A stretch of DNA of 59,984 nt, taken from Gammaproteobacteria bacterium HGW-Gammaproteobacteria-3. GTDB taxonomy: Bacteria; Pseudomonadota; Gammaproteobacteria; Methylococcales; Methylomonadaceae. The notes beneath the pieces are model-generated. The model ran no database searches, had not been told where the DNA came from, and saw only the letters and a program-made list of their open reading frames with translations. Location: assembly GCA_002843155.1 (NCBI GenBank), contig PGZD01000007.1, positions 1-59,984 on the forward strand, in the 5' to 3' direction. Below are positions 7,513 to 36,585 of this stretch, in pieces; position 1 is the stretch's first letter, and each line of letters starts with the position of its first letter. The position numbers were made by a program, and so were the translations under genes.

Positions 7513-8766
7513 TTATTCTTCTTTCAAAAAGCGTTTGGCATAGCATTCCAGATGCGGAATATCGATGCGATAGCCTTTGACCATCAAATGCCAGTACAGC
7601 CACGGAAAACCGGTGGTTTTACCCCACCACCAGATCCAGCGGTTTTTTCTGGGATCCAACAATGGAAAAGAAGGCGTCACTTTACAATCGTAGGAAAATT
7701 CCGCCAGCATGACCTTGTTCAAAGAAGTGGTGAGCGGGCAGGAGCCATAACCATCATAGCCTTCTACGAGGTTTTTGTTATCGATCAGACTGAGAATATT
7801 GTCCACCACGACCGGCACCTGTTTGCGCACTGCGGCGGCGGTTTTAGCGTTTGGCGTCGAACCTGCGTCCCCTAAGCCGAAAATATTTTTGTATTGGTTG
7901 TGTTGCAAGGTTTTTGGGTTGACATCGACCCAACCGGCGGCATTGGCCAGCGGGCTTTTTTTAATGAAATCCGGTGCGCTTTGCGGCGGCGTGACATGGA
8001 TCATATCGAACGTTTTGTTCACTTGCTGCTTGTTGCCGTCGCTGTCGGTCACCTCGAAAGTGGCTGTTTTGGCCGGGCCATCGATAGCCACCAGATTGGT
8101 GTTGAAATTGACTTTAATGCCGTAGTCGGCCACCACTTTGTCCAGGGCCTTGGCAAAAAGCGGCACGCCGAACAGAACGGGGCCGGCATTACAGAATTCG
8201 AGGGTGAATTTGTCCAGAATGCCTTTTTTGCGGAAACGGTCGGCAGCCAGGTACATGATTTTCTGCGGCGCACCGGCGCATTTGATGGGCATGGGCGGCT
8301 GCGTGAACAGCGCCGTGCCTGATGCCATATTCTTGATGCATTCCCAGGTGTATTCGACTGTTTCAGGCGAATAATTGCTGCATACGTTGTTTTTACCGAG
8401 GGTTTCTTTCAAACCCTTGATTTTATCCCAGTCCAGTTGTAAACCGGGGCAAACGACCAGATAGTCGTAGCCGATGACATCGCCTGAACGCAAGGTCACG
8501 GTATTGTCTTCGGGTTGAAAAGTTTCGGCAAAGTCTTTGATCCAGTTTACACTGGGATGAATCAAATCGGCTTCCTTGCGGATCGTTTGTTTCAAAGTAT
8601 AAGCGCCGCCACCGACTATCGTAAAGCCGGGCTGGTAGTAGTGAATTTCAGAAGGCTCGATCAAGACTATGTCGATAGCCGCGTTTTGCCTGCGCATATT
8701 GTTGGCTAAAGAGACGCCCGCCGCGCCGCCGCCGATAATCAAGAGCGTATGATGTTTGTTGGACAT
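7513..8766 (-). CDS. sqr: Sulfide:quinone oxidoreductase, type II (SQRDL-like)
   Basis: This 417-residue flavoprotein carries the N-terminal FAD-binding GGGAAG at residues 12-17. Its redox-active cysteines appear to be Cys163 (in IKCAGAPQK) and Cys343 (in GYGSCPL), the pattern of the type II enzymes related to mitochondrial SQRDL. These oxidise sulfide at the membrane, pass electrons to quinone and hand the sulfane sulfur to an acceptor. The C-terminal part is rich in Trp and aromatics (WIWWWGKTTGFPWLYW), as expected for membrane association. The ATG is preceded by GGAGGA. It is separated from serB by about 160 bases and is probably transcribed alone. Confidence 0.93.
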   Translation of the reverse strand: MSNKHHTLLIIGGGAAGVSLANNMRRQNAAIDIVLIEPSEIHYYQPGFTIVGGGAYTLKQTIRKEADLIHPSVNWIKDFAETFQPEDNTVTLRSGDVIGYDYLVVCPGLQLDWDKIKGLKETLGKNNVCSNYSPETVEYTWECIKNMASGTALFTQPPMPIKCAGAPQKIMYLAADRFRKKGILDKFTLEFCNAGPVLFGVPLFAKALDKVVADYGIKVNFNTNLVAIDGPAKTATFEVTDSDGNKQQVNKTFDMIHVTPPQSAPDFIKKSPLANAAGWVDVNPKTLQHNQYKNIFGLGDAGSTPNAKTAAAVRKQVPVVVDNILSLIDNKNLVEGYDGYGSCPLTTSLNKVMLAEFSYDCKVTPSFPLLDPRKNRWIWWWGKTTGFPWLYWHLMVKGYRIDIPHLECYAKRFLKEE

Positions 8767-8930
8767 GAAATCCTCCGGGAAGTAGTTATTTTTATATTGA
8801 AGTATTCAACGATGATGTCAGGCTTAAATGCCGACAAAATCGCTCAACAATTTATCTTCTACCCGATTCACCGGTCAAGTCAACTCATCTTTATATGCTG
8901 TCAGGTATGTACTGATCGCTTCCCTGGCAT

Positions 8931-9572
8931 CTATAAAAGCACATCCAGCACCGGCAATAACGAGGTATCGGCAATGAAAAAATCAGCGTGCGCGCGTACT
9001 ATGGGGCGCTCGACCACGCCGCCGAAACCGATGAAATAGGCGCCTGCCTGTTTCGCTTCCAGATCGGTGTTACCGTCACCAATCATCGCCAGGGTTTGTT
9101 GTGGATGGCTCAATTGCCGGCAAATTTGCGCTTTACCACCGGCTTTGGCCAGTACGCAATCCTGATCGAAATCCCGGTAGCTGCCATCGGCATTGAATAC
9201 AATATCCACGGCATGAACATGACTAGCCGGTAAATTCAGCCACCGCGCCATCGGCTCGATGGCCTGGCGCAGCCCGCCGCTGATGATATAAACGGCCTTG
9301 CCTTGGGCGAGCAGGGCTCCGAACACTTCGGCCACGCCTTCGACAATTTCGCGAAGATAAAGCTCGGCCAGCCAGTCTATGGCCTGTCGGTCAGGCTTGA
9401 TCAACGCCAGACGGCGTTCATAAATCGCTTCCAAAGGCACTTCACCGTTCATCGCGGCATCGGTCAATCGGGCCATTTCGGGGCCTAGCCCCGCCCGTTT
9501 TGCCAGCTCGTCTATGCCTTCAATCCGGCTCAAGGTGCTGTCGAAATCGAAACAGATGCGGTCAAAACTCAT
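8931..9572 (-). CDS. serB: Phosphoserine phosphatase (HAD family)
   Basis: This 213-residue HAD hydrolase has the nucleophile motif DFDSTL at residues 9-14, motif II ISGG and motif III GDGNTD. It would remove phosphate from phosphoserine in the last step of serine synthesis. It overlaps the upstream serA stop codon by an ATGA (9569-9572), giving a two-gene serine operon and strongly supporting the assignment over other HAD phosphatases. It lacks the N-terminal ACT-like extension of E. coli SerB and is the short single-domain form. Confidence 0.9.
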   Translation of the reverse strand: MSFDRICFDFDSTLSRIEGIDELAKRAGLGPEMARLTDAAMNGEVPLEAIYERRLALIKPDRQAIDWLAELYLREIVEGVAEVFGALLAQGKAVYIISGGLRQAIEPMARWLNLPASHVHAVDIVFNADGSYRDFDQDCVLAKAGGKAQICRQLSHPQQTLAMIGDGNTDLEAKQAGAYFIGFGGVVERPIVRAHADFFIADTSLLPVLDVLL

Positions 9573-11152
9573 AAAATGACCTGGGTCGCCTGATGCACTG
9601 ACGGCAGATCGCGCAGTTGCGCCAATATCGTTTCATTCAAAGGCGCTGAAATGCTGATGACAGCCATGGCATGTTGCTCCTCGTCGCTGGCGCCGACTTC
9701 CATGCGGCTGATATTGATCTGGTATTGCCCCAATATGTTGCTGATGGCGGAAATCATACCGGGCTTGTCGTCATGCCGGGTAAAAATCAAGGTGCCTTGG
9801 GGCACCACTTCGATTTCAAACTGATCGAGCTGCACCAACCGGGGATGGCGTCCGCCCAGTAACGCGCCGGACAGGGTCATCGTGTGTTCACCGAAAAAAG
9901 CCGTGACCTTGACCAGTGACAGATAATCCTGAAATTCCTCGGTTTTCATTTCCACCAAAGCAATGCCTTGGCGTTTGGCGATTTTTTCGGCATTGACCCG
10001 GTTGACCGGCGACGAGACTTTGCCTGCCAGCAAGCCCACCAGCGCTTCCACCGACACCGGGCGCACTTCAACTTCAGCGGCGCGGCCAAACAAGGCCACT
10101 TCAATCCGTTCAATCGGTTGCGTGACCAGATGAGACAAGACTTTGCCGAGGGTGTTGGCCAGATTCATGTATTGCTGCGCTTTTTGCAACTGCTCGGCGG
10201 ACAGCCTGGGCAAGTTCAAGGCATTGACTGCCTCGCCGGTGGTCAGATAGGTCACGGCTTGCCGGGCGATTTCGACACTGACGGCAACCTGCGCTTCGCT
10301 GGTGGAAGCGCCCAGATGCGGGGTGAAAACGATGTTGTCCAGGGTCAGCAACGGCGAGTTGACCGGCGGTTCATGCTCATAAACATCCAGCGCCGCACCG
10401 GCGATCTGTTTGTTCTTCAAAGCTTCATACAACGCCGCTTCATCGACCAGCCCGCCCCGGGCGCAATTGATCAGCAGGGCGGTTTTTTTCATCATCGCCA
10501 ACTGATTGCGACCGATGATATTTTTGGTTTTTTCAATCAACGGACAATGCAGTGTCAAATAATCGGCCCGGGCAATCAGCTCATCCAGCTCGACCGTGTT
10601 GACACCATAACGCTCGAAAATTTCCGGCGCGACAAAAGGGTCGTAGGCAATGACTTCCATGCCCAAACCTTTAGCACGTTGTGCGACAATGCGCCCGATG
10701 GTGCCAAAACCCAGTATCGCCAGGGTTTTGTAAGCGACTTCGGAACCGACCATTTTGGCGCGCTCCCATTTGCCGGCGCGAATGGAGCGGTCCGCAGCCG
10801 GTAAATGGCGGCTCAACGACAACAGATGCGCGATAGCCAATTCGGCTGTCGTAGTGGCATTGGCATCGGGTGTGTTCATCACGATCACGCCTTGTTCGGT
10901 CGCAGCCGCAAGATCGACATTATCGATACCGATACCGGCGCGGCCGACCACTTTCAAGCGGGTGCCGGCTTTGAGCACTTTTTCGGTAACTTTAGTATCG
11001 CTGCGGATTAAAAGTGCGTCGTAATCGCCAATGATCCGGCATAGTTCATCTTCTTTTAAACCGGTTTCAAAGTGGGTATGAATGCCGGGTTGATCATTGA
11101 GATAATTGATGCCGGCTTCCGCTAATTTGTCGGATATAAGTATGTTGTGCAT
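9569..11152 (-). CDS. serA: D-3-phosphoglycerate dehydrogenase, long form
   Basis: The 527-residue length and three-part structure fit the long-form enzyme with an intervening domain and a C-terminal ACT domain. The N-terminal catalytic and NAD-binding part contains GFGTIGRIVAQRAKG, RGGLVDEAAL and the catalytic His region FTPHLGAS. The ACT domain occupies about the last 75 residues (IFTRHDDKPGMISAISNILG), where serine would bind. It catalyses the first step of serine synthesis, a central entry point in methylotrophs as well. It is translationally coupled to serB. Confidence 0.96.
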   Translation of the reverse strand: MHNILISDKLAEAGINYLNDQPGIHTHFETGLKEDELCRIIGDYDALLIRSDTKVTEKVLKAGTRLKVVGRAGIGIDNVDLAAATEQGVIVMNTPDANATTTAELAIAHLLSLSRHLPAADRSIRAGKWERAKMVGSEVAYKTLAILGFGTIGRIVAQRAKGLGMEVIAYDPFVAPEIFERYGVNTVELDELIARADYLTLHCPLIEKTKNIIGRNQLAMMKKTALLINCARGGLVDEAALYEALKNKQIAGAALDVYEHEPPVNSPLLTLDNIVFTPHLGASTSEAQVAVSVEIARQAVTYLTTGEAVNALNLPRLSAEQLQKAQQYMNLANTLGKVLSHLVTQPIERIEVALFGRAAEVEVRPVSVEALVGLLAGKVSSPVNRVNAEKIAKRQGIALVEMKTEEFQDYLSLVKVTAFFGEHTMTLSGALLGGRHPRLVQLDQFEIEVVPQGTLIFTRHDDKPGMISAISNILGQYQINISRMEVGASDEEQHAMAVISISAPLNETILAQLRDLPSVHQATQVIL

Positions 11153-11217
11153 GAACTGGGAATCTAAGGTTGGTCGGAAAAGTACATAGCTTAACAGTTT
11201 TGGTATAATTGCAATAT

Positions 11218-11265
11218 TATACTTCGTACTGCCTCATTTGCGTTAAGCTAACGCGCTATGTCTGG
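11218..11265. repeat. Diverged half of palindromic family 2
   Basis: TATACTTCGTACTGCC, TCATTTGCG and CTAACGCGCTATGTCTGG match the left end and inner arm of the family-2 elements at 25817-25967 and 21278-21442 with several changes. It lies between serA and the TlpA-like gene and ends within 10 bases of the latter's start. Confidence 0.45.
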
Positions 11266-11273
11266 GATCATCG

Positions 11274-11771
11274 ATGAAAATCAAGGTAATCTTGTCAGGT
11301 CTGGCGCTGGCCGCTTTTTTTTCCGGCGCCTGGGTGATGCTGACGCCCGGGGCTCAGCCTGCGCCCGATGTCACTTTTACCACGTTGGACGGCAAACGGA
11401 TTGAATTACAGGCGTTAAAAGGCAAACCGGTCATCGTGACTTTCTGGGCCACCGATTGCCCCGGCTGCATCGAAGAAGTACCGCAGTTAATAGACCTGTA
11501 CCGGCAGTATCATCCGCAGGGGCTTGAAATTATCGCCGTCGCCATGTACTACGACCCGCCCAATCATGTCCTGGCCATGACACGGGCCAAAGGTATACCC
11601 TACGCCGTCGCGCTGGATTTACAAGCACGCCACGCCAAAGCTTTTGGCGATGTCAGGCTGACGCCGATCCATTTTGTCATCGCCCCCGATGGCCGCATCG
11701 TGTTGCAAAAAACCGGTGTTTTTGAACTGGACGCGATGAAAGCACTGATCGAAAGTTTAGTGGGATTGTAA
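11274..11771 (+). CDS. TlpA-like membrane-anchored thioredoxin family protein
   Basis: This 165-residue protein has an N-terminal hydrophobic signal or anchor (residues 1-24) and an AhpC/TSA-Redoxin fold with WATDCPGC; the CxxC cysteines are Cys62 and Cys65. TlpA/ResA-type proteins act in the periplasm as thiol reductants, for example in cytochrome maturation or copper-site assembly. The cis-Pro loop is seen as RLTPIHFVI. It is followed after 20 bases by the large membrane protein but has no obvious functional link to it. The physiological substrate is unknown. Confidence 0.85.
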   Translation: MKIKVILSGLALAAFFSGAWVMLTPGAQPAPDVTFTTLDGKRIELQALKGKPVIVTFWATDCPGCIEEVPQLIDLYRQYHPQGLEIIAVAMYYDPPNHVLAMTRAKGIPYAVALDLQARHAKAFGDVRLTPIHFVIAPDGRIVLQKTGVFELDAMKALIESLVGL

Positions 11772-11791
11772 AGGGCGCATTTGAATATAGA

Positions 11792-14374
11792 GTGGATCAA
11801 CAGTTTTCAAGGGAAACAAGCGTGCCTATAACCTTACAAAATATAGTAAAAATAACTCACATAACAAGGTCCAGCATAATGCTAGCCGTTGCTTTTTTTA
11901 CGGTATTTTTTTTATTTCTGGCGGCGGCTCAAAATACCTGTGCGGATTCGGGCATTGCCCGTGATTCAGTCGTGCAGGGCCATGTCGATTCAGTTAGCGT
12001 TACCGGCGGTAAATTAATGGCTCAAGGGTGGGCAGGCACGATGCAAGCCGATAATCCGATCGTTGCCGTTTCCATTCGGCTTGCCGATACAGTGGTTTAT
12101 CAGGGTGATTTTGATCCTTCCGAGCGCCCGGATGTTGTCAATGCAACCGGACGCAGTGAGTGGCTCAGATCAGGTTGGCGTATTCGGGTGCCATTACCAA
12201 GCGTTTTGAAAAACAGTGATTACGCGGTCAAAGTGTCGGTGCAACTGGCGGATGGCCAGAGCGAGCCATTAGCCATCAATGCTGGGTTCGAGCAGGTTTT
12301 TATCGATCAGCGGATAAATAAACAGGTTGTGCGGATTATTCTGATTTTTTTGTTGATTGTATTGTGCGCGGTGTTTTATCGAGCCGATTATCTGACTAGA
12401 CTGATTTTTGCCAAAAGCCGGTATTCAATAAAGCCGTCTGTCGTTTTCGGCCTTACGTTATTGCTGAGTTTTTCGGTTTTATTGAGTCTTGGCATCACCG
12501 GTTCTTCATTCAGTTTAGGGTTCAAGGAAACGCCGTTTGTCGATGCCGACATGATAAACGTCTGGGGCAAAGATCAGCCCATTCGCAGCGATGAATGGCT
12601 GGTGTTGACGCCGCTGGCTATTGCCCAATACCAGCATCAGCCCCAATTTCCGGTAGTCAATAGTAATTTAGGCGAAGACGGCCACAATATGCTGGTCGTC
12701 GGCATGGCTGGATTACCGGTAGCGCATATCACTGCGCTGGCCAAACCCGCGACCTGGGGTTATTTTCTGTTTGATTTGAAAAGGGCTTTGGCGTGGCAGT
12801 GGTGTTTCCCCCTATTCGCCTGTTTGTTTGCGCTTTGGGGTGTCGTCGCCTTGCTTTTGCCGGGGCGTTGGCAGGCCAGCTTTTTAATCGCTTTATGGTT
12901 CAGCGTATCGCCTTATGTGGCCGCCTGGTCTAACTGGCCCGCCTATACCGTGTTCTTTCCCAGTCTGGCTTTGCTGTTGAGCATCGCAATATTGCGCTCA
13001 CACAGCCTCTATGCATTATTGTTGTTGGGCTGTGTTTTAGGATTGGCATTGGCGGGTTTTGTGTTAGTTTTATATCCGCCCTGGCAAGTCTCTTTGGGCT
13101 ATGTATTTCTGGCGTTGACTGTTGCGATTGTTGTTCGGGACAAGCTTTACCAAAACTTCAATACCAGCCGACTGACGGCTTTTGGCGTCGCCATCCTGGT
13201 GACAGGCTTGATTCTTTGGGAATGGTGGTCGGATGCACAAACAGCCATTGCAGCCATGATGGCGACAGTTTATCCCGGGCAAAGAACCGCGCTGACAGGC
13301 GGCGATCTTTCATTGCCTTTTTTACTGCGCGGCTTTACCAATATGGTCACATTGAAAAAATTGGCGAGTCCGGTTATCAATCAGAGCGAAATCGCTTCCT
13401 TTTATTACCTGCTGTTGCCCCTAATAATGCTGTTTGGCATCCGTTTATATCAAAAAAAAATCGGCATCGTGGAAGTGGCCCTTGCCGCATCGATAAGCTT
13501 CATCTTGTTTTTTGGCTTTATTGGCATTCCGGCTGAAGTCGCGCAGTTTTCGCAGTGGGGACGCGTTCTGCCACGTAGAGCCGATTTAGCTTTAGGGCTA
13601 TCCTACATACTGCTCTGCGGGGTATTGCTGTCATCCAACATAAAATCCAAGCTATTAAAAATGCCAATTAAAATATTGGCATTCGTAGTAGCGCTGACTT
13701 GGGCGGCCATTGCGTTGAACAGCGTTTTCGGCCTCCACGAAACCATACTGGCACGTTTATCGCCAGGCAAACTTGCTGTACTTTTTCTTGTTGTTGCGCT
13801 TGCGGGTTACTGGTTAGCTGTGGGTAAATTACGTGAATTCATTTTCCTTAATTTGGCGGTGTCAGTGGTAACGATATGGCCATTTAACCCAATCAATATT
13901 GCACCAAATAGTATTAAGGCCATATCAACTATTGCCTCTTTCAATAAAAATAATACTGACAATGGCCTAAATCAGCGGATTCTTGTGCTCGAATCACACG
14001 TTCCAGCAATGTATCTATTGGTAAGCGGGCTGCCTGTAGCCAATGGAGTTTTCTATTATCCACAGCCTTCTTTGTGGCAACGCTTGGACAAAGACAGACA
14101 AGAATCGAACACCTACAACCGCTATCAACATCTGTTTTTTACTAGCGGAATTGTCGAGAATAGCCGTCATTATAAAATCGAGTCACCTCATGTAGATGTG
14201 GTGCGTGTTGTTCTGGAGTCACAAAATTTTGACTTTCGCCTGACGGGTGCTGGGCTTCTTGCGTCGCCGCTGCAATATCAGGATACCTTGGCCAGAAATA
14301 CTTCGTTAAACTACCTGAAAAGCACACAAGGCTGGTCGTGGTTTCGGATAAGAGGCGCTACCAATGACAATTAA
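11792..14374 (+). CDS. Large polytopic membrane protein, probable lipid-linked sugar glycosyltransferase
   Basis: This is an 860-residue integral membrane protein. A hydrophobic segment lies at about residues 27-48, then a soluble beta-rich domain (about 55-170), then a dozen or so hydrophobic helices, and a soluble C-terminal part (about 700-860). Its neighbours are a GT2 polyprenyl-phosphate transferase, overlapping by 11 bases, and a small EamA-like flippase. This is the three-part logic of Gtr-type systems, in which a multi-spanning protein moves the sugar to its acceptor in the periplasm. I recognise no catalytic motif, so the role comes from context. The start could also be a later ATG at about 11878. 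Confidence 0.6.
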   Translation: MDQQFSRETSVPITLQNIVKITHITRSSIMLAVAFFTVFFLFLAAAQNTCADSGIARDSVVQGHVDSVSVTGGKLMAQGWAGTMQADNPIVAVSIRLADTVVYQGDFDPSERPDVVNATGRSEWLRSGWRIRVPLPSVLKNSDYAVKVSVQLADGQSEPLAINAGFEQVFIDQRINKQVVRIILIFLLIVLCAVFYRADYLTRLIFAKSRYSIKPSVVFGLTLLLSFSVLLSLGITGSSFSLGFKETPFVDADMINVWGKDQPIRSDEWLVLTPLAIAQYQHQPQFPVVNSNLGEDGHNMLVVGMAGLPVAHITALAKPATWGYFLFDLKRALAWQWCFPLFACLFALWGVVALLLPGRWQASFLIALWFSVSPYVAAWSNWPAYTVFFPSLALLLSIAILRSHSLYALLLLGCVLGLALAGFVLVLYPPWQVSLGYVFLALTVAIVVRDKLYQNFNTSRLTAFGVAILVTGLILWEWWSDAQTAIAAMMATVYPGQRTALTGGDLSLPFLLRGFTNMVTLKKLASPVINQSEIASFYYLLLPLIMLFGIRLYQKKIGIVEVALAASISFILFFGFIGIPAEVAQFSQWGRVLPRRADLALGLSYILLCGVLLSSNIKSKLLKMPIKILAFVVALTWAAIALNSVFGLHETILARLSPGKLAVLFLVVALAGYWLAVGKLREFIFLNLAVSVVTIWPFNPINIAPNSIKAISTIASFNKNNTDNGLNQRILVLESHVPAMYLLVSGLPVANGVFYYPQPSLWQRLDKDRQESNTYNRYQHLFFTSGIVENSRHYKIESPHVDVVRVVLESQNFDFRLTGAGLLASPLQYQDTLARNTSLNYLKSTQGWSWFRIRGATNDN

Positions 14375-15377
14375 ATCGACACCGACTATTGCTGTTGTCA
14401 TACCTTGCTACCGGGTTACTCAACAGGTATTGGGTGTAATCGCGGGCATCGGCGCGGAAGTTTCGGCAATTTTCGCGGTGGATGACGCTTGCCCCGAAGG
14501 CAGCGGCGACTTTATCATGAGCAATTGTACGGACCCGAGGGTGACGGTGCTGCGCAACCTCCAAAACCAGGGAGTCGGCGGTGCGGTTTTAACCGGCTAT
14601 CGCGCCGCCATCGAAGCCGGTGCGGATGTCATTGTCAAAGTGGACGGAGATGGTCAGATGGATCCTCGGTTGATAGCCGATTTTATCGCACCTATCCTGG
14701 CTGAAGAAGCCGATTACACCAAAGGCAACCGCTTCTTTGATCTTGAAGAAATTCGGGCTATGCCCAAAGTCCGTCTGTTCGGCAATGCGGTGTTGTCGTT
14801 TATGACCAAATTGTCATCCGGGTACTGGGATTTGTTCGACCCCACTAACGGCTATACGGCCATTCACGCCGATGTGGCCCGGCATCTGCCTTTTGATAAA
14901 ATCAGCCACCGCTATTTTTTTGAAACCGATATGCTATTCCGGCTCAATACCTTACGCGCGGTGGTGGTGGATGTGCCTATGGATGCCCGGTACGGCGACG
15001 AAGTGAGTAACCTTAAAGTGTCAAAAGTTGTCGGTGAATTTTTGTTCAAGCATGTGCGCAATTTTTTAAAACGAATTTTTTATAATTACTACCTGCGTGA
15101 TATGTCGCTTGCCTCTATGGAACTGCCGCTTGGCTTGTTGCTGCTTACTGCAGGGAGCGGTTTTGGTCTCTATCATTGGCTGAATTCTTTGCACCAAGGC
15201 ACGGTTACCCCGGCCGGAACGGTTATGTTGGCGGCATTGCCGGTTTTGATGGGAATACAATTGATACTGGCTTTTTTGAGTTACGACATTGCCAATGTCC
15301 CACGCCGAGCTTTTCACAAGCTGAGGCGCGTGCAAAAAAACAGTTCGACGCATGGCGGTACATCCCGTCTGAAGTAA
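14364..15377 (+). CDS. GT2 family glycosyltransferase, GtrB-like polyprenyl-phosphate sugar transferase
   Basis: This 337-residue protein has a GT-A domain with the nucleotide-sugar aspartates at DDAC (Asp40/41) and the metal motif DGDGQ (94-98). Two hydrophobic segments follow near residues 250-315. The DPTNGYTAI and KISHRYFFETDML segments are typical of DPM1/GtrB-like enzymes, which transfer a sugar from a nucleotide to undecaprenyl phosphate at the inner face of the membrane. It overlaps the large membrane protein gene. The sugar is not predictable from sequence alone. Confidence 0.85.
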   Translation: MTIKSTPTIAVVIPCYRVTQQVLGVIAGIGAEVSAIFAVDDACPEGSGDFIMSNCTDPRVTVLRNLQNQGVGGAVLTGYRAAIEAGADVIVKVDGDGQMDPRLIADFIAPILAEEADYTKGNRFFDLEEIRAMPKVRLFGNAVLSFMTKLSSGYWDLFDPTNGYTAIHADVARHLPFDKISHRYFFETDMLFRLNTLRAVVVDVPMDARYGDEVSNLKVSKVVGEFLFKHVRNFLKRIFYNYYLRDMSLASMELPLGLLLLTAGSGFGLYHWLNSLHQGTVTPAGTVMLAALPVLMGIQLILAFLSYDIANVPRRAFHKLRRVQKNSSTHGGTSRLK

Positions 15378-28897: not shown

Positions 28898-30034
28898 TTG
28901 GCTTTGGAAGACGATTTAAATACCGACTTGCGCGTATTGGAAAGCCATCTGGACAGCATGCTCGATAGCGTCCGGCATAACAGCACCACGCTGAAGCGAT
29001 TTCAGGCGTTTGAAAGACGCTTACTCGATCTCAACTCGCTATCGGAAATGATTGGGTATGTGCTGCACGATGGCAAAGCTTTTTTCGATCTCGATGTCAT
29101 CAGTTTTTGTCTGGTCGAACAAGAAGGCCCCTTGACGGATTATCTTGCCGAGGACGGCTTTGATGTCAACGGGATTAAAGAACTCATTCTATTGAAAGAC
29201 AAACACTTACTGAAATCGACTTTTGGTTTTGTCGTCAAGCCCTATATCGGGGCTTACAAACACGCCCGATGCGCCGATTTTTTTTCCCATGCCGATAAAA
29301 AACCGGTCAGTGTCGCCATTATTCCTCTGATTCGCCGAGGCAAATTTCTCGGATCGCTGAACTTTGGCAGTTTTCACAGCAACCGCTTTGCCAACACCAT
29401 GGCCACCGATTTTATCGAGCACATGGTTTCAGTTGTCAGTACTTGCCTGGAAAACAATCTCAATTTCGAAATGATGCGCCGCACCAGTTTTATTGATACC
29501 TTGACAGGTGTCAATAACCGGCGCTTTCTGGAACAGCGCCTGGCCGAAGAAATCGACCGCAACCAGCGCAATGGCGAAGCACTGGGATGCCTGTTTCTGG
29601 ACATTGATTTTTTTAAAGTCATCAACGACACTTACGGGCATCAAGCGGGCGACCATGTATTAGTCATCGTCGCCGCTACGATCAAGAAATGTTTGCGCAA
29701 CAACGACGTGCTGGCACGATATGGCGGTGAGGAATTCGTGGCGCTGTTATCAGGCCTCGATGAAACCATGTTACAGACTATTGCCGAGAGGATTCGCGCA
29801 AGCGTACAGGCGCTCGACATCGAGTGGGACGGACAAAGGATTCAAGTCACGCTGTCGATAGGCACGGCTACCTATGCGCCACCCGCCGCTGTGGCCTGCG
29901 CTACATCCGAGATTGCCGCGAATTTGATCGAAGCGGCGGATTCGGCTTTATACCGGGCCAAACACAAAGGCCGTAACCGCGTTGAAAGCAATGGCTTGAT
30001 TAAGGCCGATTCCGCACAAAAACAAAGGGCTTGA
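28898..30034 (+). CDS. Diguanylate cyclase with N-terminal GAF/DUF484-like sensor
   Basis: The 378-residue protein has an N-terminal helix, a GAF/DUF484-like domain (about residues 30-190) and a GGDEF domain. The active site is GGEEF (276-280) and the inhibitory RxxD site, RNND, lies at 267-270, so it should make c-di-GMP under product control. The start is a TTG. The options are TTG 28898 and TTG 28904; a GAGG at 28894-28897 is better spaced for the second. It ends about 100 bases before the V-type ATPase B gene and may share its transcript. Confidence 0.9.
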   Translation: MALEDDLNTDLRVLESHLDSMLDSVRHNSTTLKRFQAFERRLLDLNSLSEMIGYVLHDGKAFFDLDVISFCLVEQEGPLTDYLAEDGFDVNGIKELILLKDKHLLKSTFGFVVKPYIGAYKHARCADFFSHADKKPVSVAIIPLIRRGKFLGSLNFGSFHSNRFANTMATDFIEHMVSVVSTCLENNLNFEMMRRTSFIDTLTGVNNRRFLEQRLAEEIDRNQRNGEALGCLFLDIDFFKVINDTYGHQAGDHVLVIVAATIKKCLRNNDVLARYGGEEFVALLSGLDETMLQTIAERIRASVQALDIEWDGQRIQVTLSIGTATYAPPAAVACATSEIAANLIEAADSALYRAKHKGRNRVESNGLIKADSAQKQRA

Positions 30035-30134
30035 TTTTAACTTAAAGCTTTTTTCATCAGGCGTTTATGATGAGTCCGAGGTTCAACCGTACTAATAATT
30101 GAAAAACCCGCAGCGCCGCATTTTGGAGACAGGC

Positions 30135-31484
30135 ATGATCGAGCATATGGTCAGATATCATAACATTGTGTCTATTGTCGGTAATATCATTACCGTAAAA
30201 ATCGGTAAATCTTCGAATAATCAGGAAATCAAAACCCGCTTCGGCGACCTGGCCCGTATCGATGACAGTCATGGCAACGCGTCATCCCTGGCGCAGGTCA
30301 TAAAAATAGAAGATAACACTATCTCCTTGCAGGTTTTTTCCGGTACCCGAGGTATTTCCACCGCCGCTTCGGTGCGGTTTCTGGGTCATGCCATGCAGGT
30401 GACCTATTCGGCCAATATTTTGGGCCGTATTTTTAACGGCATAGGTAAGCCGCTGGATAAGGGTTCGGATTTGCAGCCCGACCCGAAAATCGGCATAGCC
30501 AGCGCTTCGGTCAATCCGATGAAGCGGGTTCTGGCGTCGAAAATGATCCGCACCGATGTGCCGATGATCGATTTATTCAACTGTCTGGTCGAAAGTCAGA
30601 AAATTCCGATATTTTCCGTTGCCGGTGAACCCTACAACGTTTTTCTGGCCCGCATCGGCATTCAGGCGGACGCCGATATTGTGGTGTTTGCGGGACTGGG
30701 CCTTATTTTTGATGATTTTCATTATTTTCGCACGCAGTTCGAACTGGCCGGTGTATTTGCCCGCACCGTGATGTTCTGCAATCTCGCATCCGACCCCATT
30801 GTCGAGCGTTTGATAACGCCGGACATGGCGCTGGCGGTGGCCGAACGTTTTGCGGTGGAGGAAGGCAAGCGGGTACTGGTGTTGATGACCGATATGACAG
30901 CTTATGCCGATGCCTTGAAAGAAGTCGGCATTTCAATGGAGCATGTGCCTTCCAACCGGGGTTATATGGGTGATTTGTACTCGCAACTGGCCAGGCGTTA
31001 CGAAAAGGCGTGTGATTATCAGGGCGCGGGTTCGGTCACTATTTTAACGGTCACGACCATGCCCGGTAATGATGTCACGCATCCGGTGCCGGACAATACC
31101 GGTTATATTACCGAAGGCCAGTTTTATCTGCATGACGGTATGCTGGACCCTTTCGGTTCGCTGTCGCGCCTGAAACAACACGTCATCGGCAAGGTCACGC
31201 GTGAAGACCACGCGCAAATCATGAATACCATGATCCGCTTTTATTCGGCGGCCAACGATGCCGAACAGAAACAGGCCATGGCTTTTGATTTGTCACCGCA
31301 TGATAAAAAATTGCTGAAATTCGGTAAATTGTTCAGGGCGCGGTTCATGGATATCAATGTGTCGATTCCATTAGAAGAGGCACTGGATTTGAGCTGGCAA
31401 ACGCTGGCGGAATGTTTCGAGGAAAACGAATTGCTGATGAAACAGACCCTGATCGATAAATATTTCCCCCTAATTACATCATGA
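30135..31484 (+). CDS. atpB: V/A-type ATPase subunit B
   Basis: This 449-residue protein is the non-catalytic nucleotide-site subunit of the V1/A1 head. It aligns throughout with bacterial V-type B subunits: IGKPLD, PIFSVAGEPYN in place of a P-loop, ITPDMALAVAERFA, SQLARRYEKA and TMPGNDVTHPVPDNTGYITEGQ. A GGAG 6 bases upstream supports the ATG at 30135. It opens the cluster B-D-I-K-E-C. The catalytic A subunit, which normally lies directly upstream of B in this operon type, is not here. Confidence 0.93.
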   Translation: MIEHMVRYHNIVSIVGNIITVKIGKSSNNQEIKTRFGDLARIDDSHGNASSLAQVIKIEDNTISLQVFSGTRGISTAASVRFLGHAMQVTYSANILGRIFNGIGKPLDKGSDLQPDPKIGIASASVNPMKRVLASKMIRTDVPMIDLFNCLVESQKIPIFSVAGEPYNVFLARIGIQADADIVVFAGLGLIFDDFHYFRTQFELAGVFARTVMFCNLASDPIVERLITPDMALAVAERFAVEEGKRVLVLMTDMTAYADALKEVGISMEHVPSNRGYMGDLYSQLARRYEKACDYQGAGSVTILTVTTMPGNDVTHPVPDNTGYITEGQFYLHDGMLDPFGSLSRLKQHVIGKVTREDHAQIMNTMIRFYSAANDAEQKQAMAFDLSPHDKKLLKFGKLFRARFMDINVSIPLEEALDLSWQTLAECFEENELLMKQTLIDKYFPLITS

Positions 31485-32083
31485 GCAATCTGCCGGTCAG
31501 TAAGGCTTCGCAGCAAAAGGAAGCTAAAAAACTCAAACTCTATCGGCAATATTTACCTTCGCTGGATCTCAAACGCCAGCAACTGATGCTGGAGCGGGCT
31601 AAAGTTGCAGGCGAATTTGAAGCCACGCTCGAACGCATCGAACAGTGCCAAAAAACCGTGTTCGAGTCTTTGCCGATGCTGGCCAATCACGCTATTGATC
31701 TGACCAATCTGGTTCAGGTGGGCCGGGTCAGTGTGGGCGAGGAAAATATCGTCGGCATCCGGGTGCCGATTTTGACCTCTGTCGAAATCAACCTGACGCC
31801 TTATTCAACCTACAGCCGCCCGCATTGGGTCGATCAGGCCGTGGTGCAATTAAAAACCATGTTGGAACTGAAATTGCAGTTACAGATCGACGAAAAGCGC
31901 GTGGCAATACTTGAGCGGGCCGTTAAAAAAATCACCCAGAAAGTCAATTTATTCGATAAGGTGCTGATTCCGGGAGCGCGGCAGAATATAAAAAAAATCA
32001 GTATTTTTCTCTCCGATGCCGAACGCGCGGGCGTGGTGCGGGCTAAAATCACCAAAAACAAGCGGCTCAACAAAGGGCTTTGA
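31481..32083 (+). CDS. atpD: V/A-type ATPase subunit D (central stalk)
   Basis: This 200-residue, largely coiled-coil protein matches the D subunit, the rotating central shaft that links the AB head to the membrane ring. Two long helices flank a central part, with LFDKVLIPGARQNIKKISIFLSD near the C-terminus as in other D subunits. It overlaps the B stop codon (ATGA), and the next gene starts within 3 bases. Confidence 0.92.
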   Translation: MSNLPVSKASQQKEAKKLKLYRQYLPSLDLKRQQLMLERAKVAGEFEATLERIEQCQKTVFESLPMLANHAIDLTNLVQVGRVSVGEENIVGIRVPILTSVEINLTPYSTYSRPHWVDQAVVQLKTMLELKLQLQIDEKRVAILERAVKKITQKVNLFDKVLIPGARQNIKKISIFLSDAERAGVVRAKITKNKRLNKGL

Positions 32084-32085
32084 TA

Positions 32086-33885
32086 ATGGCTATTCTCAGG
32101 CTGAAAAAATTAACCTTTTGCGGTTTGATCGATGATAAAGCGGCTGTGCTGCAAGCTTTGCAAGCCTTGGGTGGTTTGCATCTGATCGATTTGAATACGG
32201 CGCCATCAGTACCCGATACCTTCACTTCCGATAATGCGCAACAGGTGATCGAGGCGTTGAAATATCTATTGCAATGCCCCAACCGCCGCCATCAGAGCAA
32301 GGCTTTGGAACATTTCGATATCGACCGGATAGCCAATGAAACACTGGACGTGCAGGCCAGGATTCGGGAATTTTCAGACCGGCACGATGCCTTGGTGAAA
32401 CGCATCAAGGAAATCGAACCGTGGGGTAATTTCAGCTTGCCCGAAGCGGGGCAACTGGCAGGCTATAAATTATGGTTTTACATCATTCCAAGGCGTATGT
32501 TGTCCAGACTGCACGGCAATGGCCTGATCTGGCAAATCGTTTACCGCGATAATTTATACTACTATGTCGTGGTGGTGTCGAAGCAAGAGCCTCCTGAAAG
32601 TGCCATGCCGGTGGCCAGAACGCATACCGGATCCCTGCCGTTGTCGGTTCTCAAAAGTCAATGCGATCAAATCGAGTTGGCTCTGGAAGATTTACAGGCG
32701 AAAAGGGAGTCTTTGACGCGCTGGATCAGCTTGATGGCTCTGCATTTGGCTAAAGCCCGGGATGCGGCTGATTTGACCCGGGCGGAAACCATGACGCGTG
32801 ATGAAATCGGTGTGTTCGCAGTGCAGGCCTGGGTGCCGGAAAAAGCGATTGAGCGCTTCGAACAGTTTGCTTTGCAGAACAATCTGGCGCTGTTGGCAGA
32901 AGACCCTGCGCCTGACGACAGGCCGCCGACTTTACTGGAAAACAACCGCTATCTGGCGGGCGGGGAAGATGTGGTAGGATTTTATCAAATGCCGGGGTAT
33001 TACGGCTGGGATCCTTCGCTGGTGGTGTTTTTTTCGTTTGCGCTGTTTTTCGCCATGATTTTATCCGACGCCGGTTACGCCGCGACTTTTGCCGTATTGC
33101 TGGCCTTGCGCTGGCGGCGACTGGGGCAAAGCATAAAAGGTCAGCGTTTGCGCATGCTGGCCGCCATTACACTGGGTGTCGCCATGCTCTGGGGCATGAT
33201 GACCGGAAGCTATTTCGGTTACAGCCCGCCTGAAGCCGGTGTGCTGGGTGCGATCAAGTTCATTGACATGAAAAATTACGACAATATGATGCGCTTGTCG
33301 GTTGCGGTCGGTGTATTGCATATTGCCATGGCCAACATCAGAGTCGCCTATCACCGTAGATATTCCACGCAAGCACTGGCCTCATTGGGTTGGGCCTGGC
33401 TGGTCATCGGGGGGTTTTGTTTATGGCTGGCGCGGAATTTGGCCGCGCCATTACTTGAACAGACCGCCCATGCCATGTTGGTTCTGGGCGGCCTGTGTCT
33501 GTTGTTATTCAGCAGCAACCGCGCCATCAACGGCGCTACGGATTGGTTATGGCGAATTTTGGCCGGTCTGAAAAGCCTGATCGGCATCACCAAGCTGTTC
33601 GGCGATGTTTTGAGCTATATGCGTTTGTTTGCTTTGGGTCTGGCCAGCACTTCATTGGCGATAACTTTCAACCATCTGGCGGAGCAGGTTTATACCGCGA
33701 TACCCGGCCACGGGTTGCTGCTCAGTATACTGATTTTGCTCATCGGCCATGTTCTGAATCTGGCTTTGTCGTTGTTAAGTGGCGTGGTGCATGGTTTGCG
33801 TTTGAATTTTATCGAGTTTTATAACTGGGGCGTGTCCGATGAAGGTTATCCCTTTAAAGCTTTTTCCAAAAAAGGAGTCGATTGA
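32086..33885 (+). CDS. atpI: V/A-type ATPase subunit I (subunit a homologue)
   Basis: The 599-residue protein has a cytoplasmic N-terminal half with coiled coils (to about 310) and a membrane half with about seven or eight helices, as in subunit I/a, which forms the ion half-channels and the stator. The conserved FGDVLSYMRLFALGLASTSLA helix carries the expected Arg. The start is the ATG at 32086; a TTG 6 bases earlier is less likely. Confidence 0.93.
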   Translation: MAILRLKKLTFCGLIDDKAAVLQALQALGGLHLIDLNTAPSVPDTFTSDNAQQVIEALKYLLQCPNRRHQSKALEHFDIDRIANETLDVQARIREFSDRHDALVKRIKEIEPWGNFSLPEAGQLAGYKLWFYIIPRRMLSRLHGNGLIWQIVYRDNLYYYVVVVSKQEPPESAMPVARTHTGSLPLSVLKSQCDQIELALEDLQAKRESLTRWISLMALHLAKARDAADLTRAETMTRDEIGVFAVQAWVPEKAIERFEQFALQNNLALLAEDPAPDDRPPTLLENNRYLAGGEDVVGFYQMPGYYGWDPSLVVFFSFALFFAMILSDAGYAATFAVLLALRWRRLGQSIKGQRLRMLAAITLGVAMLWGMMTGSYFGYSPPEAGVLGAIKFIDMKNYDNMMRLSVAVGVLHIAMANIRVAYHRRYSTQALASLGWAWLVIGGFCLWLARNLAAPLLEQTAHAMLVLGGLCLLLFSSNRAINGATDWLWRILAGLKSLIGITKLFGDVLSYMRLFALGLASTSLAITFNHLAEQVYTAIPGHGLLLSILILLIGHVLNLALSLLSGVVHGLRLNFIEFYNWGVSDEGYPFKAFSKKGVD

Positions 33886-34325
33886 TGACTGATGTTATAG
33901 TGATTTTGGGCTGGATCGGTTTATATGCGCCCATGGTTTTGGGCGCGATCGGCAGTGTTATCGGCTGTACCGTGGCCGGTCAGGCCGCCATTGGCGCCAT
34001 GCTCGACACCGAGAGCGGTTACGGGCGTTATATCGGTGTTGCCGCGATGCCGTCTTCGCAGGTTATTTTCGGTATTGTCGTCATGTTTACCCTGAACCGA
34101 AACGTCACCGCCGAAGTAGCGCCCGGCATTTTTGCGATAGGCGTACTGTCCGGTCTGGCGCTGTTGTTCAGCGCCATTTATCAGGGCCAGTGCTGCGCTT
34201 CCGCCATCCATGCGTCTAAAGCCAAACCTGAAATCTTCGGTTTATCGATCGTACCGGCGGCCATTGTCGAAGGCTTTTCCGTATTCGCTTTTATTTTCGC
34301 ACTGGTGCTCAGCGCGGGTATCTGA
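33885..34325 (+). CDS. atpK: V/A-type ATPase subunit K (membrane rotor ring)
   Basis: This 146-residue proteolipid has four helices, a duplicated hairpin as in V-type c-subunits. The ion-binding Glu is in PAAIVEGFSVFAF (helix 4). Helix 2 has PSSQVIFG and helix 3 has SAIYQGQ, corresponding to the Na+ ligand positions Thr64/Gln65 and Gln110 of Enterococcus NtpK. Ser replaces Thr and Phe replaces Tyr68. Sodium coupling is possible but unproven. An AAAGGAG precedes the ATG at 33885. Confidence 0.93.
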   Translation: MTDVIVILGWIGLYAPMVLGAIGSVIGCTVAGQAAIGAMLDTESGYGRYIGVAAMPSSQVIFGIVVMFTLNRNVTAEVAPGIFAIGVLSGLALLFSAIYQGQCCASAIHASKAKPEIFGLSIVPAAIVEGFSVFAFIFALVLSAGI

Positions 34326-34333
34326 GAGATTGA

Positions 34334-35026
34334 ATGATGAAATCCGAACAAGCGCATATTGCCTCGTCAGGCGTTGAAAAACTGATAGAAAAACTGCGCG
34401 ATGAAGCCATCGACGCAGGCCGGGCCAAAGCCGAAGATATTGTCGCCAACGCGCAGAAAAGAGCGCAATGGCTCATTCAGGAAGCTGAGCGGGAAGCCGG
34501 ACAATTAATCGACAAGGCTCGGGCCGAAGCGGAAGCGATCCAATCGGCCGGACGCGATGCCTTGCATTTGGCAGGGCGCGAAGCCTTGTTGAGACTAAGG
34601 GATACCTTGCTGGGCAGTTTCAGCCAGGAAGTCATGCGCGTGGTCGGCCGACAAATGGCTAAGGAAGAGGTGATAGAGCAACTGATTCTGGCGCTGGCGG
34701 GGCGAGTCCGCGAAAAAATCGGACTTGACAATAACCGGGCCATTGTCATCCAGCTGCCGGAAGATGTCGTCGGCATCGATGAGTTACGCAAAAACCCGGA
34801 AGAACTCAGGCAGGGCGCCTTGTCGCATTTAACGGCGGCGATTGCCTCGGACTTGTTGAGAAAAGGCGTCACCTTCGATGTTTCGGATCGGATTCGTGGC
34901 GGTTTGACGCTGAAACTGGTCGATGACAACATGACGCTGGATTTTTCCGATGAAGCGGTGGCAACGCTGTTTCTGGAACATTTGCAGCCCCGTTTTCGCG
35001 CCATGTTGCAAGGTATCGTGAAGTGA
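34334..35026 (+). CDS. atpE: V/A-type ATPase subunit E (peripheral stalk)
   Basis: The 230-residue protein starts with a long Ala/Glu/Lys-rich helix (about residues 10-90) and ends in a globular domain, the architecture of the E subunit that anchors the head as a stator. In the usual bacterial order E opens the operon; here it follows K. Two adjacent ATGs (34334 and 34337) are equivalent candidates. It overlaps the next gene. Confidence 0.85.
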   Translation: MMKSEQAHIASSGVEKLIEKLRDEAIDAGRAKAEDIVANAQKRAQWLIQEAEREAGQLIDKARAEAEAIQSAGRDALHLAGREALLRLRDTLLGSFSQEVMRVVGRQMAKEEVIEQLILALAGRVREKIGLDNNRAIVIQLPEDVVGIDELRKNPEELRQGALSHLTAAIASDLLRKGVTFDVSDRIRGGLTLKLVDDNMTLDFSDEAVATLFLEHLQPRFRAMLQGIVK

Positions 35027-35706
35027 TCAATGATCGCTTCAAATATGCCATGCTGCTCAGCAGTTTGCCTTTGCACCCGGCGAATCTGTTCGCGGCAAAG
35101 CAATTGCCGGTGTCGCGTATTCAGTTGGATAAGCGGCTGGCCTGGCTCGATGCGGACGATGCCCGGCACCTCGAACAGATCGAGATGTTGGTGCACTGGT
35201 CAAAAATCTCTGATCAGCCGGATGACCTTTTATTTAAACATGCCCGGACGGAACTGGATGCTATCGATAGCGCTTTTTTAAAAGAAATCGTTTTGTGGCG
35301 GCTTGAATTGAGAACGCTTATGTCGGCATTGAGACGGCGGCACAGTGGCGAAACATCGGCGCCAACACCGGCCTTTCGCGGTTTTGGCAAATGGCCTGCC
35401 TTGATCATCCGGCACTGGCAGGAAAAGGATTTCGGCATCGGACATTTGCAGCCGTGGCTGCCGAAAGCCTCTGACCTGATTGAGCAAAATAAAACCTATG
35501 AACTGGAAAAAATGTTGCTGAACCGGGTCTGGCAACATTACAGCCGCATTGGCTGCTACCACTATTTTGATTTTCCCGCCGTGGTCATCTATGTGCTCAG
35601 ATGGGACATCATCAACCGGTGGTCGAGTTATAACAAAGAGCAGGGACTGGCGCGTTTCGATGAATTGGTCAGCGCCGGGCTGGCCGACGTATCAATGACC
35701 GGTTAA
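35023..35706 (+). CDS. DUF2764 protein, V-type ATPase subunit C-like
   Basis: This 227-residue helical protein starts MINDRFKYAMLLSSLP at a GTG overlapping the E stop. DUF2764 genes lie between E and A in bacterial V-type operons and are taken as the C (d) subunit connecting rotor and ring. In the usual arrangement the A subunit gene would follow immediately. Here the cluster ends and an unrelated TonB-like gene follows. Confidence 0.8.
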   Translation: MINDRFKYAMLLSSLPLHPANLFAAKQLPVSRIQLDKRLAWLDADDARHLEQIEMLVHWSKISDQPDDLLFKHARTELDAIDSAFLKEIVLWRLELRTLMSALRRRHSGETSAPTPAFRGFGKWPALIIRHWQEKDFGIGHLQPWLPKASDLIEQNKTYELEKMLLNRVWQHYSRIGCYHYFDFPAVVIYVLRWDIINRWSSYNKEQGLARFDELVSAGLADVSMTG

Positions 35707-35793
35707 AAATATATTCGCCGTGATTGGCACTATCTTTATGATCGACTTGGTGTATATTGAGAAATATGTGCTCCATATACTTCGGTTGAAAAT

Positions 35794-36321
35794 ATGAATA
35801 GACCTGACTTGGCATTGTTGAGCCCGTACCCCGAAAAATCGGCCGACCATAGCTTGCAGGTGGCCATTTTCGCCGCTTTGCTCGCGCATCTTTTGATGAT
35901 TGTGTTATTGAATTTCCCTCAGGATCAAAGCCATAAAATCAGCCGCGCTATCGAAATAGTCATCGCGCCAACGCCGGTGCAGGAAATTGCCAAACCGCGT
36001 GAGAGCCGCGTACAAAAAAAACAGGCCACCGCTATCACCCAAAAATCCTTGCCGATATTGCCGCAACAAAAAGGGCTCGGTGCCGAAGGCAGAGGGGAAA
36101 TACCTTTAGCCGGAAATAAAATATCCCGTCCCAAGTCGATGGCTAAAAAAATAATAGCAGTCGGCAAGCCGGACAAAAATAACGTGAGGTCAACTTTTGC
36201 CTTGCAAAAGCAAAAACAGATCCCGGCGCCAAAATTGACGGCCGCACTGTTACAGCAGCAGATCAGCGAACTGGGCGCACAAATCAGGGCGGCCTGCGGC
36301 GTTTATCCGGAAAGACGGTAA
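35794..36321 (+). pseudogene. TonB-like energy transducer lacking the C-terminal domain
   Basis: The 175-residue frame has a short cytoplasmic N-terminus, one hydrophobic helix (about 25-45) and a Lys/Pro/Gln-rich linker ending in LLQQQISELGAQIR, as in TonB-family proteins of this group. The roughly 90-residue C-terminal TonB domain that contacts outer-membrane receptors is missing. The frame ends just after this point, and repeat-like sequence follows (36337-36391). It is likely truncated and non-functional, though a short TonB-like protein cannot be excluded. Confidence 0.6.
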
Positions 36322-36375
36322 CATTATACTGCGTGTGTTCACCGCACGGATTTACCCCATTGGGTTGTTGTAGGA

Positions 36376-36391
36376 GCCCGATTTATCGGGC
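36376..36391. repeat. Short REP-like hairpin
   Basis: GCCCGAT and ATCGGGC form a 7-bp perfect stem with a TT loop, preceded by GTAGGA. Similar GTAGGAG sequence occurs near 15836. It sits just past the truncated TonB-like gene and may mark the deletion junction. Confidence 0.45.
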
Positions 36392-36585
36392 GACGAGCGT
36401 GGCAGAGATTTGGGTGGTAATAGCCGTGAGGAAAAATAAAATAATTCGGGAGTGCTTTTAAAAAATCCGTCAACTTCAGGTGTATAATGAAACACTTCAA
36501 CGGATTTTCGCAACATAGTAAATTTGATGGCCAAAAAATTTTCCGTTGTGACTGCATGAAGTATGTTTATTGCCCAGGCTGCCCA

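Follow-up and report, generated by a model that had tools for sequence, protein, structure and literature searches.

The gene for the catalytic A subunit of a V-type ATPase has probably split off from the 3' end of an operon once ordered B-D-I-K-E-C-A in Gammaproteobacteria bacterium HGW-Gammaproteobacteria-3 (Methylococcales; Methylomonadaceae; assembly GCA_002843155.1, hereafter the source genome), where its product would complete the pump in trans. The window analysed here is the entire contig PGZD01000007.1 (59,984 bp; C26), which carries at positions 30135-35706 six intact V-type ATPase genes in the order B-D-I-K-E-C, all on the forward strand in the list of open reading frames (ORFs). 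An intact gene for A lies on another contig, C121. The source genome encodes all of A, B, D, E, I and K, together with the C-position subunit, of a bacterial V-type ATPase (A/V family). In rotary ATPases of this kind, the A3B3 head hydrolyses ATP, D turns, and the K ring and I carry the ions. What is described below is a known machine, rearranged.

We propose that the operon of this lineage was originally B-D-I-K-E-C-A, and that a rearrangement parted its last gene, A, from C, leaving A alone on C121 upstream of a gamma-glutamyltransferase gene. The A subunit would be expressed from its new site and join B in a normal A3B3 head, and the pump would thus work with its catalytic subunit supplied in trans. 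Judging from the gene orders of relatives, only the break between C and A appears to belong to the lineage of the source genome, the B-D-I-K-E-C order being old and shared.

The six-gene cluster and its distant catalytic subunit

The genes of the cluster overlap by 4 bp at each junction, except K and E, which are separated by an 8-bp gap. Subunit B, nucleotide-binding and non-catalytic (30135..31484, + strand), matches ATP-synt_ab (4e-49) and, over its cut-off, NCBIfam NF002555, and bears an SLSRL motif that we take to be the arginine finger; its start is the ATG at 30135, and an in-frame TTG also occurs at 30099. The central-stalk subunit D (31481..32083, +) matches ATP-synt_D (PF01813, 7e-40) and, over its cut-off, NF002565. 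The membrane a-type subunit I (32080..33885, +) matches V_ATPase_I (PF01496, 7e-12) over the cut-off, with the NCBIfam V-type I models below theirs. Subunit K (33882..34325, +; 147 aa, two hairpins) matches ATP-synt_C (2e-20) and has counterparts of the sodium ligands of NtpK. The peripheral-stalk subunit E (34334..35026, +) was assigned from its place in the cluster and from profile matches that all lie below the curated cut-offs (vATP-synt_E of Pfam, 3e-4; V-type E models of NCBIfam, 1.8e-22 and 2.3e-21), a caveat attached to its membership. The last gene (35023..35706, +) stands at the C position and belongs to the DUF2764 family (PF10962, 6e-6, over the cut-off; no NCBIfam match). By homology, E and the DUF2764 protein would take stator or coupling places, the role of the latter being suggested by its position.

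A sequence-only reading of the window had described six intact and tightly coupled genes without A, and ORFs, profiles and tblastn all agree with that description. When the genome's own A was used as the tblastn query, the only hits in the window were its paralogue B and a chance match of 11 residues. The break point lies at 35707..35793, where linked relatives have A after C; a 175-aa ORF unrelated to the ATPase and without a Pfam match (35794-36321) comes next in the window. The cluster is located in the middle of C26, so that the end of the contig does not account for the missing gene.

The same reading had suggested that A might be encoded elsewhere and that the genome be searched for it and for its neighbours, a suggestion that proved right. 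A PF00006 search of the source genome (3.13 Mb, 135 contigs, completeness 100) found six places, one of which is an intact V-type A subunit of 612 aa (C121, 11453-13291, - strand). This protein has a P-loop, GPFGAGKT, at residue 264 and a barrel-sandwich (Xtn) domain (PF16886, 5e-25), reaches 749 bits against a cut-off of 470 with the NCBIfam model for V-type subunit A, and finds A/V-type A subunits as its best PDB matches. Four other PF00006 places we take, from ORF length and pairing only, to be F-type alpha, F-type beta, a FliI-like ATPase and Rho. The protein queries A and B each had one match in the source genome (E <= 1e-100), and both sites are internal to their contigs. No other V-type gene stands beside A on C121, where it lies directly upstream of the gamma-glutamyltransferase gene.

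Gene order in relatives and other split operons

The order of the genes was examined in 80 named loci, fetched by B and kept from 310 relatives. These loci were annotated with all ORFs; non-overlapping longest ORFs had missed genes in GC-rich genomes, and printed orders such as BDKI are an artefact of sorting long ORFs by start. The order B-D-I-K-E-C-A was found in 60 of the 80 loci, and another 10 end too early to tell. It spans fetched loci of Methylococcales, Chromatiaceae, some Cyanobacteria and a Gemmatimonadota locus. In Methylotuvimicrobium buryatense 5G (L015), a related member of the Methylococcales, the same B-D-I-K-E-C cluster encodes proteins identical to those of the source genome at 86% (B), 82% (K), 62% (I), 61% (D) and 55% (C), and A (78% identical) directly follows C, unlike in the source genome, where it is on another contig.

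A survey of 311 genomes of the order Methylococcales (threshold 1e-100) found A in 95, B in 93 and both in 89. By same-contig distance, A and B are linked in 72 of these 89 genomes, with a gap of 4173-6337 bp (median 4273), and in none of the 89 does A stand beside B. Three genomes in which this survey found A only, outside the 89 (G194, G195 and G211), have a different, classical V-type cluster with A beside B. A survey of the family (151 genomes) found A in 54 and B in 53.

Since B-D-I-K-E-C-A is common in relatives, the apparent rotation of the operon is not an event of the source genome. The sequence-only reading had taken E-C-A-B-D-I-K as the usual order, which does not hold for loci related to the source cluster, and had seen in B-D-I-K-E-C a circular permutation that left A outside; it had also named this very order with a linked A in relatives as the result that would overturn that view. 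The source cluster keeps the B-D-I-K-E-C order of the DUF2764-type operon and lacks A directly after C. It is a variant of that operon type and not a standard member.

The remaining 10 loci have no A despite at least 4.3 kb of sequence after B (L031, L033, L052, L054, L058, L059, L060, L067, L074 and L080). One of them, L060, stops just 4.4 kb past B, probably too early to show A, and in the three from tubeworm endosymbionts (L052, L054 and L059) A is found about 12 kb after B on one contig. In the one of these endosymbionts that was read, from Lamellibrachia (L158), C and A are separated by about 6.4 kb of other genes (8230-14505), most of them on the opposite strand. The two Thiocystis loci (L074 and L080) have B alone, with no other V-type gene found in about 10 kb of downstream sequence. 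In Gemmatimonadota bacterium bin1440 (L058, L194), B-D-I-K and a solo A are about 1.3 Mb apart by their coordinates, a likeness to the source genome from a different phylum; the profiles detected neither E nor C in L058 or L194.

For all 17 Methylococcales genomes in which A and B are unlinked, the pieces bearing each gene were fetched and annotated. In six of them, the source genome included, the operon is broken within a contig, and other genes lie past the break. The source genome is split between C and A, whereas G002 is split between E and C, with B-D-I-K-E on one contig and C-A on another. In G101, the split falls between K and E, B-D-I-K and E-C-A being about 83 kb apart on one 4.39-Mb contig, and G160 is also split between K and E. 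The ORFs after K in these two genomes are alike by size alone (497, 146 and 936 aa in G160 against 498, 144 and 936 aa in G101). G128 is decayed, with A and B each in two ORFs, and G287, which is 77% complete, has A and B each alone. The other 11 genomes are interrupted at or near a contig end, a state indistinguishable from assembly gaps; one of these, G286, has about 0.86 kb after K without a recognised E. In G107, which is 83% complete, A stands alone inside a contig and B was not found. Detachment within the V-type operon is uncommon but recurrent, and among the genomes read only the source genome has A alone gone and the other six genes together.

Additional variants were seen among the loci. 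Methylobacter marinus A45 (L021, 9989-17483) carries a tandem B-D-I before a complete B-D-I-K-E-C-A, the I of the tandem being shortened to 488 aa; this arrangement shows one way in which operon ends could move, and could also be an assembly error. In G104 (L130), B is followed by a 61-aa D-like fragment, then by an ORF of 601 aa (9849-11654) and only then by the full D; this ORF looks like an insertion inside the operon. G109 (L132, L193) has two complete B-D-I-K-E-C-A clusters, whose A proteins are 79% and 62% identical to the query.

Origin of the isolated A gene

On C121, A is followed by the gamma-glutamyltransferase gene, a phosphopantetheinyl transferase gene and a DUF192 gene. The longest transferase frame begins 6 bp from the end of A, its likely ATG start being 40-60 bp further in. 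A terminator-like hairpin that overlaps the end of A speaks against co-transcription of the two genes, without excluding it. A promoter scan around A gave eight weak consensus matches, where shuffled sequence gave a mean of 2.4, and none is convincing; three lie on the strand of A, upstream of or at its start. Upstream of A come 454 bp that include a dispersed repeat, and past these stands a divergent SprA-related gene. The repeat (C121, about 13461-13715; about 255 bp) contains a perfect inverted repeat with 25-bp arms and has 75 matches in the genome, including six further near-full-length copies at 87-92% identity and two at 71-73%. It resembles an element of the miniature inverted-repeat transposable element (MITE) type. 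A different, short repeat resembling repetitive extragenic palindromic (REP) sequences occurs in the window at 36343-36411 and has 28 further matches elsewhere in the genome. We considered whether copies of a single repeat had recombined at the two breaks; this is unsupported, as no copy of the repeat near A is listed for C26 and the one near C is different and short.

None of the other genomes that have both genes places A within 20 kb of the gamma-glutamyltransferase gene (0 of 48; on one contig in 12, the nearest 529 kb apart) or of a SprA-like gene (0 of 32; on one contig in 10), nor does any place the transferase and SprA-like genes that close (0 of 38; on one contig in 8). Relatives therefore offer no ancestral neighbourhood from which the new site of A could be dated or polarised. 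Eight of 101 transferase loci were viewed in detail: A is at none of them, the phosphopantetheinyl transferase gene comes next in all eight, and the DUF192 gene was recognised in six; seven of these genomes have A elsewhere, and G003 has no A. In some relatives, the gene after A resembles that of a chemotaxis receptor, and C121 has a similar gene at a distance of about 4 kb from A; we did not count this as synteny, since the orientation differs and identity is 45-49%.

Several observations suggest that A and B have remained partners. In trees of 55 rows each, the source genome falls for both proteins in one 10-row clade that also contains Methylomonas, Methylotuvimicrobium and Methylicorpusculum (support 98/93 for A and 99/97 for B). 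Judged by its nearest named relatives, it would be one of the Methylomonas-like methanotrophs. Within this clade, the ratio of A to B distances is 1.45-1.78 (median 1.57) in the nine pairs that include the source genome and 1.42-2.09 (median 1.59) in 32 other pairs, four others with a B distance below 0.05 having been dropped. The GC content at third codon positions (GC3) is 0.59 in both genes, and all 184 columns invariant across the 54 other A proteins are kept in that of the source genome. On this comparative evidence, A looks native and under normal constraint. General decay had already been discounted from the window itself, a view upheld by the six intact ORFs and the invariant columns of A.

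Some points nevertheless weigh against detachment. Inside the shared clade the two trees conflict, with starred branches in each: the A tree joins the source genome to seven rows, without L013 and L014 (98/92), and the B tree to six rows, without L015, L016 and L018 (97/96). We read this conflict as poor resolution; it may also reflect recombination. The searches contained no other genome of the same genus, and the split rests on one assembly of 135 contigs. Furthermore, the junction upstream of A sits at the dispersed repeat, an error-prone spot in draft assemblies. The last two points bear on the alternative that survives best, namely that C and A are truly adjacent and that contigs were wrongly joined. 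The false join would be required just upstream of A, precisely where a repeat with six further near-full copies lies. Should the transferase gene indeed come after A in this lineage, their junction would be no argument against a misjoin. However, a second false join would be required immediately past C, where the next 0.6 kb or so is unique in the genome and no copy of the repeat is present on C26, and similar breaks occur in assemblies with megabase contigs (G101 and G171). We consider such an artefact unlikely.

Even less likely is the loss of the original A and its replacement by an A from another lineage that landed at the transferase site. Such an origin would fit a gene that stands alone and whose closest rows within the shared clade are not those of B, the support being starred in either tree. 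It is countered by the placement of both proteins in the same 10-row clade, by their equal GC3 and by an A/B distance ratio within the normal range. A circular intermediate or a tandem duplication that rotated the operon in the source genome itself and left A outside has very little to recommend it: the tandem of M. marinus A45 suggests that duplications may occur at this locus, but relatives commonly have this very order with A linked, and neither a remnant of A in the window nor one of C in the first 40 kb of C121 was found. Equally implausible is a six-gene cluster that works without A while the solo A, unlinked as it is, serves another role; every invariant residue is kept in A, and a protein so constrained and diverging in step with B is unexpected for a broken partnership.

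Detachment of A from the 3' end of the operon, with function in trans, is the reading that we retain. If this is correct, the gene for the catalytic subunit can move out of the operon of a multi-subunit rotary pump and show no visible loss of constraint, and a V-type cluster annotated without A need not be defective.

Known V-type operons, ion specificity and the upstream gene

Among the papers listed by literature searches, titles and abstract openings yielded no description of a V-type operon with A in trans or of a rotated V-type operon. The NtpFIKECGABDHJ operon of Enterococcus hirae has the same core subunits and the same cyclic order of the shared genes as the source genome (PMC3608713). 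It is one linear operon with A next to B, whereas A is unlinked in the source genome. The E. hirae operon presumably also differs by its classical C subunit and its extra genes F, G, H and J. The V-type operon of Bacteroides fragilis P207 comprises seven loci including DUF2764, as in the source genome, although there DUF2764 comes second in a single, complete operon; its ATPase is reported with sodium residues (PMC10197588). As in the source genome, a V-type enzyme occurs beside F1Fo in the methanotroph KS41, whose V-type operon is described as most like those of Planctomycetes, with proton pumping suggested (PMC6119699).

Classical V-type clusters in other genomes are ordered C-I-K-F-E-A-B-D (L187 and L191); L189 resembles them as far as C, I, F, E, A and B are concerned, and its K and D were not called. 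A second, classical cluster in Candidatus Venteria ishoeyi (L188, G170; 7622-10902) has A followed by opposite-strand genes and not by B. NtpFIKECGABDHJ, the classical layout and B-D-I-K-E-C-A agree in the cyclic order of I, K, E, A, B and D; C is not fixed in the circle, since it precedes I in classical loci but comes after E in NtpFIKECGABDHJ and in the methanotroph type. We tentatively raise the possibility, which we hold to be rather doubtful, that bacterial V-type operons are rotations of one core circle, -I-K-E-A-B-D-, cut at different points to give I-K-F-E-A-B-D (classical), B-D-I-K-E-C-A (methanotroph) and E-C-A-B-D-I-K, presumably the full order of the Bacteroides operon. If an operon were duplicated in tandem and then lost the outer copies, its cyclic order would be preserved while its ends moved, and a gene once terminal would be easily detached, as A may have been here. 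With layouts that resemble rotations of one core order, such re-cutting of operons becomes testable with existing genomes.

The ion moved by the pump was approached through K, which phmmer aligned to NtpK of E. hirae (4.8e-8). The Na+ ligands of NtpK are L61 (through its backbone), T64, Q65, Q110 and E139 (PMC2359735). Their counterparts in K are M56, S59, Q60, Q101 and E130, respectively, and F63 stands at the place of the stabilising Y68 of NtpK. These counterparts favour Na+ and are compatible with it without being proof; a ring that keeps the Na+ ligands makes it somewhat more probable that the pump moves Na+ than that it does not.

Directly upstream of B, a gene outside the ATPase set encodes a GGDEF protein with a DUF484-like N-terminal part (28898..30034, +). 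A homologue lies upstream of the cluster in M. buryatense 5G, and homologues are found within 2 kb upstream of B in 10 of the 64 loci with room to show one. The proximity of this gene to B may indicate a link to cyclic di-GMP or plain old synteny.

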